DNA of 64,000 nt from Moorella humiferrea (GTDB lineage: Bacteria > Bacillota > DSM-521 > Neomoorellales > Neomoorellaceae): positions 966,001-1,030,000 of the forward strand of contig NZ_CP136419.1 of assembly GCF_039233145.1 (NCBI RefSeq), in the 5' to 3' direction. Shown piece after piece: positions 6,763 to 53,301 of this stretch. Both the position numbers and the translations under genes were made by a program. The notes under the pieces were generated by a model. That model did not search any database, was not told the DNA's origin, and saw only the letters and a list, made by a program, of their open reading frames with translations. The stretch's first letter is position 1; every line of letters begins with the position of its first letter.

Positions 6763-8043
6763 GTGGGTAAGATTTTTATTAAAGGCTGCACCATCGTCCC
6801 CATCAGCGGACCGGTAATTGAAGAGGGAGTTATCGCCGTCGACGGCGACCGCCTCTATTACGTAGGCCCGGCAAACGCTCTTCCGGCCGGCTGGCAGGCG
6901 GATACCGTCATCAAGGCCGACGATAAAGTGGCCCTGCCGGGCCTGGTGAACGCCCATACCCATGCCGCCATGGCGCTTTTGAGAAGCTACGCCGACGATC
7001 TCCCCTTGAAAGAATGGCTGGAGAAAAAAATCTGGCCCAGGGAGGCGAGGCTTACCCGGGAAGATATTTACTGGGGAACGAAGCTCGCCCTGCTGGAGAT
7101 GATCCGCTCCGGTACCACCACCTTTGCCGATATGTACTTTAATATGGACGCCGTGGCCGAAGCCGTGTTGGAGGCCGGCCTGCGGGGATGTCTCAGTCAA
7201 GGGCTCATCGGTTTTCAGGACGAAGACGGCGGGCGCCTGGCTTCGGGCGTCAGCCTGGTCAAGGAGTGGCAGGGCGCCGGCGACGGCCGCATTACCACCA
7301 TGCTGGGGCCCCACGCTCCCTATACCTGTCCTCCGGAATACCTGACCAAAGTTGCCGACACAGCAGCGGGACTGGGGGTGGGCCTCCACATCCATCTGGC
7401 GGAAACGAAGGGCGAGGTGGCAGATATCCAGTCCCGTTATGGCGCTACCCCCATAGCCCTGGCAAACAGGCTGGGCCTCTTTGAACTCCCGGTCCTGGCC
7501 GCCCATTGCGTCCACTTAACCGCCGAAGACATCTCCATCCTGGCGGAGAAAAAGGTCGGTGTGGCCCACTGCCCGGAGAGCAACTTGAAGCTGGCCAGCG
7601 GTGTGGCCCCGGTGAAGGCCATGTTGTCTGCCGGCGTTAATGTGGCCATCGGTACCGACGGCGCCGCCAGCAACAACAACCTGGATATGGTGGGTGAAAT
7701 ACGCACCTGCGCCCTGCTGGCGAAGGGAATTTCCGGCGATCCCACGGCTGTTCCCGCCCACCAGGCCCTGGTGATGGCCACCTTGAACGGCGCCCGTGCT
7801 CTGGGACTAGATAAGAAAATAGGCACCCTGGAGGCCGGAAAAAAGGCGGACCTCATCCTAGTAAACAAACGCCTGCCTCATATGATGCCGTCCCATAATG
7901 TAGAAGCCGATATCGTCTATGCCGCCAGCGGCAACGACGTCGATACGGTGATCGTCAACGGTAAAATCCTCATGAGCGGAGGAGAAGTAAAAACCCTGGA
8001 CGTTGAGGAGATTTATGCAGAGGTCAAGAAGCGGGCCGGTTGA
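6763..8043 (+). CDS. mtaD: 5-methylthioadenosine / S-adenosylhomocysteine deaminase
   Basis: 426 residues, GTG start. Amidohydrolase barrel with metal ligands in AHTHAAM (residues about 66–71), HIHLAE, AHCVHLT and the final catalytic Asp in IGTDGAASNNN. The close match to the MtaD/SAHD subgroup supports deamination of methylthioadenosine and S-adenosylhomocysteine to the inosine derivatives. Related deaminases such as 8-oxoguanine or guanine deaminase share the fold, so substrate range is inferred. Its 3' end faces a minus-strand c-di-AMP riboswitch whose transcript would read antisense into this gene. Confidence 0.92.
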   Translation: MGKIFIKGCTIVPISGPVIEEGVIAVDGDRLYYVGPANALPAGWQADTVIKADDKVALPGLVNAHTHAAMALLRSYADDLPLKEWLEKKIWPREARLTREDIYWGTKLALLEMIRSGTTTFADMYFNMDAVAEAVLEAGLRGCLSQGLIGFQDEDGGRLASGVSLVKEWQGAGDGRITTMLGPHAPYTCPPEYLTKVADTAAGLGVGLHIHLAETKGEVADIQSRYGATPIALANRLGLFELPVLAAHCVHLTAEDISILAEKKVGVAHCPESNLKLASGVAPVKAMLSAGVNVAIGTDGAASNNNLDMVGEIRTCALLAKGISGDPTAVPAHQALVMATLNGARALGLDKKIGTLEAGKKADLILVNKRLPHMMPSHNVEADIVYAASGNDVDTVIVNGKILMSGGEVKTLDVEEIYAEVKKRAG

Positions 8044-8047
8044 AGGC

Positions 8048-8200
8048 AAAAAAAATTCCACCTCCTTCCACGCCTACGGGGTTAGCTGACGGGTGCGGAC
8101 CCAGGATGGCCCTACCCGGCATCTAGAACAATGCCGGGATTAACCCCAGAAAAACGGTTCCCCCGTTTTCCCACCGAGGAAATTCGGCGATCTGGTGGAA
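8048..8200 (-). ncRNA. c-di-AMP riboswitch (ydaO/yuaA class), orphan
   Basis: Read on the minus strand, 8200 to 8066 contains the hallmark blocks of the ydaO aptamer in order: GCCGAA, GGGGGAACCG, TGGGGTTAATC, a variable hairpin with arms CCCGGCAT/ATGCCGGG, TAGGG, GTCCGCACCC and CAGCTAACCCCGTAGGC. The outer P1 helix is closed by TTCCAC (8195–8200) with GTGGAA (8066–8071). Next come AGGAGG, GGTGGAA (8056–8062) and eight U residues (8048–8055). The 5' arm TTCCACC can pair with either GTGGAA or GGTGGAA, suggesting a switch in which the second pairing sits directly before a U tract. No conserved gene lies downstream on this strand; transcription would enter mtaD in antisense. Confidence 0.85.
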
Positions 8201-8226
8201 GAAAGGATGGAATTGATGGCATTTTT

Positions 8227-8255
8227 ATTGTAGCATGGGAACCTGTTTTTGTTAA
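8227..8255 (-). promoter_or_regulatory. Minus-strand promoter of the c-di-AMP riboswitch
   Basis: Minus-strand TTAACA (8255–8250), a 17-base spacer and TACAAT (8232–8227). The predicted start near 8220 gives a leader of about 20 nt before the aptamer. This argues that the riboswitch is transcribed rather than a dead relic. Confidence 0.65.
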
Positions 8256-8336
8256 CATAAAACTTAGTGGTAAATCTAGAGAGTTTTTTCCAGGGGACTT
8301 TTCAAAAATTAGAGTTTAATGGAAGGGGTGAAGTCT

Positions 8337-9275
8337 GTGGAATACCGCCGGCTGGGTAAAACGGGTATGACGGTATCCGAGCTTTGTTTCGGGGCCTTAC
8401 CTATGGGGCCGCGTCAGAAAAACCTCGACGTTGATACCTGCACCAGGATTATCAAAAGGGCCCTGGACGGAGGGGTTAATTTCATCGATACGGCGCAGGT
8501 ATATGAAACTTATGAGCCTATCCGGAGGGCCATTCACGCCTATGACGGGGAAGTAATCATTGCCACCAAGTCCAATGCCGCCACCTATGAGGATATGGAG
8601 CGGGCTATCCAGGAGGCCCGGGAGAAGCTCCAGCTGGATTATATCCATATTTTCCACCTGCATGCTGCCCGGGCAACGGAGCGAATTTTTGAGGAAAGGT
8701 CGGGCGCTTTGCACTGCCTCCTTGATGCCCGGGAAAAAGGGTTGATCAAGGCCGCCGGTATATCCACCCACAGCGTGGCGGCGGTGCGGAAGGCGGCCGC
8801 CGAAAAAGAAATAGACGTTATCTTTCCCTTGATAAACATCAGGGGCATGGGTATTATCGACGGCAGCCGGGAAGACATGCTGGCCGCCATTGCCGCAGCC
8901 GTAGCTGCCGGCAAAGGGGTTTACCTGATGAAGGTTCTGGCTGGGGGCAACCTCCTGGACAACTACCGCGAGGCCATGGACTTCGCCCGCCGGATACCGG
9001 GGATTGCTGCCGTCGCCGTAGGGATGGTCAGCGAGGCGGAGGTGGACTACAACCTGCGCTATTTTAACGGCGGAGATCCGGGCAAAATAGAAATCGGTAC
9101 CAAAGAGTTCGCCGTGGTAGAAACCGTATGCAAAGGCGACGGCGCCTGCCTTAAAGCCTGTACCAACGAAGCCATATCTATGGTCAACGGTAAGGCCAGG
9201 ATCGACCGCAGCAAATGCCTTCTCTGCGGCTACTGCACCGAGGTGTGCCCGCAGTTGGCCATCAGGATGATATAA
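8337..9275 (+). CDS. Aldo/keto reductase fused to a C-terminal 2[4Fe-4S] ferredoxin domain
   Basis: 312 residues from the GTG at 8337; GGAAGGGG lies 8 bases upstream, so the in-frame ATG at 8319 is not needed. Residues 1–260 form an aldo/keto reductase barrel: RRLGKTGMTVSELCFGALP, NFIDTAQVYETYE with the catalytic Asp/Tyr region, IATK with the catalytic Lys, and IHIFHLHAA. Residues about 265–312 carry Fe-S motifs: a degenerate C-x5-C-x3-C and a canonical C-x2-C-x2-C-x3-CP. Such fusions are common in anaerobic Clostridia and presumably use ferredoxin or flavin as redox partner; substrate unknown. The first Cys set appears incomplete, so one or two clusters may be bound. Confidence 0.88.
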   Translation: MEYRRLGKTGMTVSELCFGALPMGPRQKNLDVDTCTRIIKRALDGGVNFIDTAQVYETYEPIRRAIHAYDGEVIIATKSNAATYEDMERAIQEAREKLQLDYIHIFHLHAARATERIFEERSGALHCLLDAREKGLIKAAGISTHSVAAVRKAAAEKEIDVIFPLINIRGMGIIDGSREDMLAAIAAAVAAGKGVYLMKVLAGGNLLDNYREAMDFARRIPGIAAVAVGMVSEAEVDYNLRYFNGGDPGKIEIGTKEFAVVETVCKGDGACLKACTNEAISMVNGKARIDRSKCLLCGYCTEVCPQLAIRMI

Positions 9276-51187: not shown

Positions 51188-52318
51188 ATGGATGACTTGA
51201 ACGTTGCCAGAGAGGTCGCCGGCAGCGGTGATGGGCCGCGCCGGGAAATAGCAGAAAAATGTACTGCCTGTGGTCAATGTATTGCTTCATGCCTGCTATT
51301 GGAGGAGATTGGCGAAGCCCCCCTTGAGATTGCCGGTCGGGGAGCAACAGTAGAGGAAGCTTTTTCCTGCACCCTATGCGAACTATGCACCGCTGTATGC
51401 CCGGCAGGCCTGTCCCCGGCGGGCATGTTTGCCGCTAAACGCACCGAAGCAGTAGCAAACGGAGAATTTCCTATATACGATTATCGCTACCTTTACCCGG
51501 ACCGGGAGCTTAATACTTGCAAACTATACCGCGAAAAGTACAACATTCATTACCAGGAGCTGCCCGTTGATCAAGAAGGCGAGGCAGCCTTTTTCCCGGG
51601 GTGCACTATGTTGACTTATGGATCGGATTTAACCAGGGCTGCCTTTCATCACCTGGCGAGGCTCTGGCCTCGCATGACCCTTTTAACCGACTGCTGTGGT
51701 AAACCCCTTTACCAGATGGGTTTAAAGGAACGCGGGGAAAACTATACTGCCTTCCTTAAAAATAAACTAAAAAAACTGGCTGTAAAGGTATTAATCACCG
51801 CCTGCCCCAACTGTTTTTACGAGCTGCGTAACCAGCTGGCACCAGACGGCATTGAGGTCAGGACCATCTACGAGAACTGGGGATTCGGGGTGGCCGGTAA
51901 AGGATTAATTACCATTCATGATTCCTGTCCTGACCGCCATGAGGGCATCTTTGCCCGGCAGGTACGTGAGGCCTTGAGGAATAGCGGCTACCGCTTGGTT
52001 GAGATGGAATACTACGGGGCGAACACCTTCTGTTGTGGCAGCGGCGGCCAGGTAAGCCACTTTCGTCCTGACCTGGCCATGGCCCTGACCGACCGCCGCC
52101 TGGAAGAGGCAGGTAATACCGGAGCCGGGATCCTGGCTGGATACTGCTTGAGCTGCGTTCTTAATTTCGCTCGCGATGCCAACGGGCTCAAGGTGCGCCA
52201 TGTCCTCGATTTGTTGCTCGGTCAGGAAAAGGATTACAGTGAAATTAAAAAAAGGGCAAAGGCTCTTTATACCGGGCCCGAAGGTGAAGAAAACTGGCGG
52301 CGGGTAATGGCGGAATAA
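51188..52318 (+). CDS. HdrD/GlpC-like Fe-S oxidoreductase
   Basis: 376 residues from the ATG at 51188 (a TTG at 51197 is also possible). Residues about 20–80: two [4Fe-4S] motifs CTACGQCIASC and CTLCELCTAVCPAG. Two CCG-type cysteine domains follow, with CCGKPLYQMG and CCGSGGQVSH, the pattern of heterodisulfide reductase D and GlpC. May pass electrons to or from a thiol/disulfide or quinone. A 71-base gap precedes it, longer than most gaps in the operon; no terminator seen. Confidence 0.87.
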   Translation: MDDLNVAREVAGSGDGPRREIAEKCTACGQCIASCLLLEEIGEAPLEIAGRGATVEEAFSCTLCELCTAVCPAGLSPAGMFAAKRTEAVANGEFPIYDYRYLYPDRELNTCKLYREKYNIHYQELPVDQEGEAAFFPGCTMLTYGSDLTRAAFHHLARLWPRMTLLTDCCGKPLYQMGLKERGENYTAFLKNKLKKLAVKVLITACPNCFYELRNQLAPDGIEVRTIYENWGFGVAGKGLITIHDSCPDRHEGIFARQVREALRNSGYRLVEMEYYGANTFCCGSGGQVSHFRPDLAMALTDRRLEEAGNTGAGILAGYCLSCVLNFARDANGLKVRHVLDLLLGQEKDYSEIKKRAKALYTGPEGEENWRRVMAE

Positions 52319-52344
52319 CTATTGCAGTAAAGGGAGAGAAACCG

Positions 52345-53301
52345 GTGGATAACCAGCAACTCGCTAGCATTTATAAAGACATATTAGCCCTGCGTTGGGA
52401 GCCGGTAGCAGTGCGGTTACTGCGTCCCAGCGAGGCCATACCCGCAGGGGTTACAGAACCCACGGCAACCTTGCGTCACTGCCAGGCCATTATTGCTGCC
52501 AGGCGGGGGTGGAGTTTGTATATGCCACCGCGCCGGCACGCCTGCCCCGACGGGGCGGCCATTATGGGCCTCATACCCATGCCGCCCAAACTGCAGTCGG
52601 GTGAATTATACCTCCTGTTTAAAAAGCTGCCTACCCTGGAATGTGCCCGGAAGATGATCGCCGTCCGGCCTTGTTTTCCGGCCGGCAGCTACGAGGCCAC
52701 CCTGGTAGCACCTTTGAGTAAAGCCAACTTTGAAGCCGACGTGGTAATCTTCACCCTGTGGCCGGAGCAGGCCATGTGGCTTTGCTGCGCCCAATCGTAT
52801 AACAGCGGTGAACGGCAGGGCTTTAACACCTCGGGTTATAACTCCACCTGTGCCGACCTTACCGTCCAGCCCATGCAGACAGGGAAAATGAATATTTCCT
52901 TCGGTTGTTACGGCAGCCGCGCTGCCAGTGACATAAGCGATTTTGAGCTTTATCTCTCTCTCCCGGCTGCCCAGCTGGAGATTGTGGCTCGTTCGCTGCA
53001 AAAACTGGCACAGAAAAGCATACCTGAAGCGCGCCATAAAATCTATATGCCGCCCGTTATGGAAAAAGTAGGCGTCCAAAAGAAGAATACCTTGGATGTC
53101 CCGGCGATTCAGATCAACATCGATGCTGCCAACTGTTTAGGAGAAGGCCTGTGTGCCGACTTTTGCCCCTACGGCGTGTTCGTTATGGAAGAACAAGACG
53201 GCCGCCCGGTACCAATTGTCAAGAACCCGGAGCGTTGTACTGCCTGCTACACCTGCGTAGGCCAGTGTCCGGCAGGGGTTATCCAGGTTTTGCAGCAATA
53301 G
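52345..53301 (+). CDS. DUF169 protein with C-terminal 2[4Fe-4S] ferredoxin domain
   Basis: 318 residues, GTG start. Residues 1–225 match DUF169 (WEPVAVRLL, LRHCQAII, MPPRRHACPDGAAIMGL, RPCFPAGSYEATLVAPL, SFGCYGSRAASDISDFELYLSLP). Residues about 260–318 hold CLGEGLCADFCP and CTACYTCVGQCPAG. DUF169 proteins are widespread in anaerobes, function undefined, often near redox enzymes. Ferredoxin fusion indicates electron transfer to the DUF169 domain, which may bind a metal cofactor through conserved Cys. Confidence 0.85.
   Translation: MDNQQLASIYKDILALRWEPVAVRLLRPSEAIPAGVTEPTATLRHCQAIIAARRGWSLYMPPRRHACPDGAAIMGLIPMPPKLQSGELYLLFKKLPTLECARKMIAVRPCFPAGSYEATLVAPLSKANFEADVVIFTLWPEQAMWLCCAQSYNSGERQGFNTSGYNSTCADLTVQPMQTGKMNISFGCYGSRAASDISDFELYLSLPAAQLEIVARSLQKLAQKSIPEARHKIYMPPVMEKVGVQKKNTLDVPAIQINIDAANCLGEGLCADFCPYGVFVMEEQDGRPVPIVKNPERCTACYTCVGQCPAGVIQVLQQ

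Follow-up and report, generated by a model that had tools for sequence, protein, structure and literature searches.

Results

A c-di-AMP aptamer with promoter- and terminator-like sequences faces mtaD

The 64-kb window, by which we mean the whole stretch of DNA that was analysed, carries on its plus strand, in this order, ftsY, mtaD, an aldo/keto reductase gene, a ylxM-like gene and ffh, with a c-di-AMP (ydaO/yuaA) aptamer on the minus strand between mtaD and the reductase gene (Table 1). RF00379 is the sole Rfam family matched within the window, with an E value of 1.3e-20 over model positions 1-134 of 134 and a score far above the gathering score of 38 bits, a cut-off that the units of relatives also exceed by a good margin. 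A first-pass annotation had read here a minus-strand aptamer of this class, a TTAACA-N17-TACAAT promoter, a second GGTGGAA copy followed by eight U residues, and a next minus-strand sequence that is antisense to mtaD; we recover all of these, the promoter with an extended -10 (TGC). The source genome (G000) holds four RF00379 copies in total and encodes a diadenylate cyclase domain protein. Its other three aptamers (G000:C1 380473, 1443648 and 2261701) precede lysine-2,3-aminomutase-type radical SAM, glycosyltransferase family 20 (OtsA-like) and LysM-NlpC/P60 genes, an osmolyte and wall regulon.

Table 1 Features of the aptamer unit and its neighbours in the window
Feature	Position	Strand	Remark
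mtaD (MTA/SAH deaminase, amidohydrolase)	6763..8043	plus	convergent neighbour, not the inferred target
U8 tract	8048..8055	minus	complement holds the mtaD stop codon TAA in most relatives
Terminator 3' arm GGUGGAA (second copy)	8056..8062	minus	GGUGG present in all units
P1 3' extension, first copy, GUGGAAG	8065..8071	minus	
c-di-AMP (ydaO/yuaA) aptamer with flanks	8056..8199	minus	RF00379, 93.1 bits
Leader arm CUUCCACC, 5' half of terminator helix	8194..8201	minus	pairs with GGUGGAA before the U tract
Predicted RNA 5' end / seed GCCAUCAAUUCC	8209..8220	minus	
Promoter: -35 TTAACA, 17-nt spacer, extended -10 TGC-TACAAT	8227..8255	minus	
AT-rich stretch 5' of -35	8256..8266	minus	TAAGTTTTATG in most relatives
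Aldo/keto reductase with 4Fe-4S domain	8319..9275	plus	

The -35 hexamer and the 17-nt spacing are common to 13 of 14 units, where the promoter takes the form TTAACA-17-TAnnAT with TG, and are weaker in G014; the AT-rich stretch is almost unchanged across the genus genomes, the aptamer-less G003 included. We infer a transcription start near 8220 on the minus strand; a limited literature search found no start-site map for Moorella. At the other end of the unit, leader CCACC and the GGUGG before the U tract are present in 13/13 units, and the predicted minus-strand fold, in which the leader pairs with the sequence directly before the U tract, exceeds shuffled sequences in stability by 4.7 sd. 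By sequence and fold prediction, this P1-fused helix and the U tract are conserved among units; the first copy of the P1 extension is no longer a pairing match in genus g6 (G015 and G016, Thermanaeromonas-type), where the terminator helix still matches.

Cis-acting paralogues that precede CAP-domain genes within the genus share the promoter motif of the orphan unit and its fused layout (CCACC...GGTGGATTTTTTA), behind which comes a ribosome-binding site. This common layout supports the U tract as a working platform and agrees with the terminator role that the first-pass annotation had suggested for the P1 arm. The AGGAGG motif belongs to the terminator 3' arm. An ORF after it was considered and dropped, as no start codon is conserved there in relatives, as was a micro-ORF within the RNA, whose 5'-end ATG varies (ACG in G004, GGC in G014). 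We make no claim of cross-genus covariation for the terminator stem of 6 bp, where part of the signal comes from a shift in the alignment. Within the aptamer itself, the orphan and CAP-gene copies have GGTTAATC with CCGCACC (once CCGTACC), and most other aptamer classes examined here have GGTGAATC, with CGAACC where the segment is readable; these differences possibly reflect coupled variation inside the aptamer core.

The unit is retained in three genera beside different genes

The unit lies directly after mtaD, in the opposite direction, in 10 of the 11 genus genomes. The draft genome G003 has the promoter and 5' leader, with the aptamer deleted before mtaD; this deletion (G003:C105) could be natural or a fault of the draft assembly. 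The unit also follows mtaD in G014 (genus g5), but with a different downstream gene. The g6 genomes have an mtaD without an adjoining unit, and their unit, which shares the 5' leader and the fused terminator, is convergent to the gene of a 231-aa protein without a Pfam match, next to hpt. The RNA is thus conserved and its neighbour is not, because the g6 unit faces an unrelated gene. After mtaD the unit is absent in six family genomes outside the genus and G014, and it was not found in G011, G012, G013 and G017. A pattern scan of a public genome collection for leader plus aptamer gave recognisable matches only in Moorella/Thermanaeromonas-type records, the remaining matches being judged chance by taxon.

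Nowhere among these genomes is the unit placed for use in cis, upstream of and codirectional with a controlled gene: it is antisense to mtaD or, in g6, to the 231-aa gene, and no conserved ORF was found downstream of it on the same strand in relatives. Decay of the reductase gene is seen in three genomes (G008, G006 and G003), two of which, G008 and G006, retain the RNA; the reductase is therefore not needed for keeping the RNA, and we rejected a functional link between the two. In G002 and G001 the mtaD frame continues through the terminator and stops in the aptamer complement, giving a C-terminal extension.

The invariant 5' end is complementary to the start region of a wall hydrolase gene

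The conserved 5' end was not part of the first-pass annotation, nor was the distant site that it matches. The seed is invariant as GCCATYAAYTCC in 13 units from three genera, apart from two C/U changes, and the predicted RNA start falls at or just before it, 6-8 nt after the -10, in 13/13 units. The leader behind the seed varies in length, and the CAP-gene paralogues do not have this segment. As RNA, the seed reads GCCAUYAAYUCC and is complementary to GGAGTTGATGGC, the Shine-Dalgarno-to-start segment of a LysM-SleB-type cell-wall hydrolase gene (G000 52136-52918, minus) whose secreted product of 261 aa has two LysM domains and a Hydrolase_2 (SleB/CwlJ-type cell-wall hydrolase) domain. Both C/U changes lie opposite G, and pairing is retained with either base.

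Within one genome this match is of limited power. The seed complement, GGARTTRATGGC, has five exact sites in G000, of which one is the RNA gene, one is the hydrolase start region and the remainder lie elsewhere, mostly inside reading frames, and it shows no genome-wide enrichment over a reversed control. The seed-hydrolase duplex is predicted at -22.8 kcal/mol, compared with a mean of -9.1 (sd 2.4) and a best value of -17.8 in a sample of 274 G000 start regions. Shuffling the seed gives about 0.1 start regions per genome that attain the strength of the hydrolase duplex, since the site is by itself similar to a Shine-Dalgarno followed by a start. A single genome is therefore not convincing; what carries the case is that the match is conserved over three genera and co-occurs with the RNA, together with the class of the gene.

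In 12/12 genomes that yielded both the RNA and the hydrolase the site is exact; exact sites occur in G000-G005, G007-G010, G014, G015 and G016, among them G003 even though its aptamer is deleted. No hydrolase orthologue was found in G006, which is 58% complete. The site is altered in 4/4 RNA-less genomes, reading GGAGTTGATGGT in G011, which still has 11/12 site bases, GGAGTGATATAT in G012, GGAGTGATGGCC in G013 and GGAGTGGATAGCC in G017. All 12/12 site columns are invariant and neighbouring blocks average 0.49-0.71 majority base, as scored on orthologues anchored at exact matches, which are all those found except the ones of RNA-less genomes. Control start regions (mtaD, ftsY, ykuK-like and yabG-like) diverge among the same genomes, other SleB-type hydrolases with readable starts lack the site, and the duplex extends to 15 base pairs in G016. 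Such conserved complementarity to a distant mRNA start is one of the marks of a trans-acting riboswitch sRNA of the SreA kind.

Three further observations concern the hydrolase genes. G012 and G017 have no in-frame ATG, GTG or TTG at normal spacing before the LysM-hydrolase, and the best start there is apparently an AUU/AUA 8-9 nt after GGAG that is present in others too. A block like CAACTATTTTGCAATGACG, possibly a regulator site or a promoter part, lies about 50-100 nt upstream of the hydrolase in most family members, some of them RNA-less. The G014 hydrolase gene, from a draft genome, has in-frame stops or a frame shift, with the start site intact.

In a tree of mtaD proteins with several poorly supported forks, one side holds G014, G015, G016 and G017, and the opposite side holds the genus together with G011-G013. 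RNA-bearing genomes thus occur on both sides, so that an ancestral RNA with later losses fits, and the simplest history would be an ancestral RNA that was later lost in some lineages, followed by loss of the site.

Predicted accessibility of the seed

Folding predictions for the terminated RNA leave the first six bases of the seed 0.85-0.99 unpaired. The seed's second half is predicted to be free in g6 and partly free in G014, G009, G010 and G004; in the other members of the genus its AAUUCC is predicted to pair with the terminator arm. The read-through RNA also carries the 5' end. In g6 it sequesters the seed (unpaired 0.01 in G016 and 0.38 in G015), which is predicted to pair there with the sequence behind the U tract, so that a free seed would there depend on termination; in the genus the seed is 0.52-0.98 unpaired in the read-through RNA. 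Gating by seed sequestration is therefore predicted only in g6, and not clearly in the genus.

Discussion

Our computations show an aptamer with promoter- and terminator-like sequences, its conservation across genera, a change of neighbour, and a complementarity linked to the presence of the RNA. That the unit encodes a stand-alone sRNA is strongly supported by these comparisons, and the hydrolase is likely its target. Taking both together, we consider it reasonably probable that the unit is a free-standing, c-di-AMP-binding, trans-acting sRNA that blocks translation of the hydrolase. From the sequence we infer transcription, ligand binding, ligand-dependent termination, duplex formation and repression, in the following form. 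A free-standing RNA of about 170-180 nt would be made from its own promoter. High c-di-AMP would stabilise P1 and thereby favour pairing of the leader CCACC with GGUGG, a helix that encloses the entire aptamer and leads directly into the U tract, and a short RNA would be released. The first 12 nt of this RNA, largely single-stranded, would pair in trans with GGAGUUGAUGGC of the hydrolase mRNA, and pairing at the Shine-Dalgarno-to-start segment would block translation, such that high c-di-AMP would turn the wall hydrolase down much as cis ydaO switches do with their own genes. The fuller version, a dedicated second-messenger sRNA that acts in trans, in which P1-fused termination yields a 5' seed that silences the hydrolase and read-through in g6 hides that seed, is held with a similar, modestly favourable degree of confidence.

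Among the three readings offered by the first-pass annotation, we favour a small RNA that terminates at the U tract, and the other two fare less well. A c-di-AMP-controlled cis-antisense RNA on mtaD, with ligand-free read-through lowering mtaD expression as AspocR does for pocR, would suit the convergent orientation with mtaD in 10/11 genus genomes and G014, and AspocR provides a precedent for riboswitch-controlled antisense RNA (PMC8079631). We nevertheless regard it as improbable, as the antisense position is not kept across relatives, the g6 RNA facing an unrelated gene, and as conservation at the four-fold sites of the final 50 codons of mtaD (0.52, 0.41) falls below the gene average and below most other windows along the gene, so that they give no sign of a further function on the opposite strand. 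A terminated RNA, moreover, would barely enter mtaD because in most genomes the U tract overlaps the region of the mtaD stop codon, and an antisense role leaves the invariant 5' end unexplained. The other reading, a leftover of a cis riboswitch after loss of its target gene, can draw on the loss of the aptamer in G003 and on the close CAP-gene paralogues, whose promoter motif and P1-fused terminator are so alike that the unit may derive from such a cis switch. Comparison of the locus in relatives leads us to reject it, since aptamer, promoter and terminator are retained over three genera and even where the reductase gene has decayed; an ordinary bidirectional mtaD terminator is disfavoured by a plus-strand T-rich stretch that is not conserved, and a relic or terminator of either kind seems to us very improbable.

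A harder distinction is between a hydrolase-directed sRNA and a free-standing RNA with some other role, be it a ligand buffer, a protein binder of the EutX/Rli55 type or an sRNA with another target, for which the hydrolase match would be coincidental or secondary. All of the context evidence fits any stand-alone RNA, the chance of an equally strong match somewhere in one genome is about 0.1, and the target comparison drew on sampled start regions. An invariant 5' end, however, would be superfluous in a buffer. In three genera the site accompanies the RNA, and in the four RNA-less genomes it is altered; c-di-AMP riboswitches, moreover, are already known to control genes of the matched class. 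On this evidence some other role is a minor possibility, and we retain the hydrolase-silencing sRNA as the best explanation.

If this is correct, the unit is a c-di-AMP riboswitch that has become independent of any cis gene and acts on a remote mRNA; a second messenger would then be tied to wall turnover through RNA regulation in trans. The hydrolase reading offers a single target and a 12-nt pairing rule, both testable, and suggests that riboswitch matches without a downstream gene merit re-examination. A limited search of the literature outside subscription papers found no trans-acting c-di-AMP riboswitch RNA.

The aptamer is the same as that of the known c-di-AMP (ydaO/yuaA/kimA) riboswitches of RF00379, which act in cis on wall hydrolase/peptidase genes, e.g., C. 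glutamicum nlpC, and on K+ systems (PMC9960051); in the B. thuringiensis kdpFABC case c-di-AMP causes termination before the operon (PMC6488665). LysM/NlpC hydrolase genes are known cis targets (PMC9960051), and G000 has one such copy. Unlike these switches, the unit described here has no codirectional downstream gene, the basal helix of its aptamer runs into a U tract, and its proposed output is the RNA itself, acting in trans.

By function, the nearest relatives of the unit are SreA/SreB, EutX/Rli55 and AspocR. SreA/SreB, the SAM riboswitch RNAs of Listeria, are ligand-terminated RNAs that pair with a distant mRNA and block its translation (PMC8079631), as we propose here; SreA also controls a cis operon (PMC8079631), whereas the present unit has no cis gene, its ligand is a second messenger, and its proposed seed is the RNA 5' end, directed at the Shine-Dalgarno itself. 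The B12-riboswitch sRNAs EutX/Rli55 are stand-alone ncRNAs whose production is set by their own riboswitch, again as proposed here (PMC8079631; DebRoy 2014, cited in PMC7266159), but they sequester the EutV protein and need read-through, while the terminated form of our unit would be the active one, by base-pairing. AspocR, a B12-riboswitch-controlled antisense RNA (PMC8079631), has its riboswitch antisense to a neighbour, like the unit here, whose neighbour however changes between genera and shows no antisense constraint.
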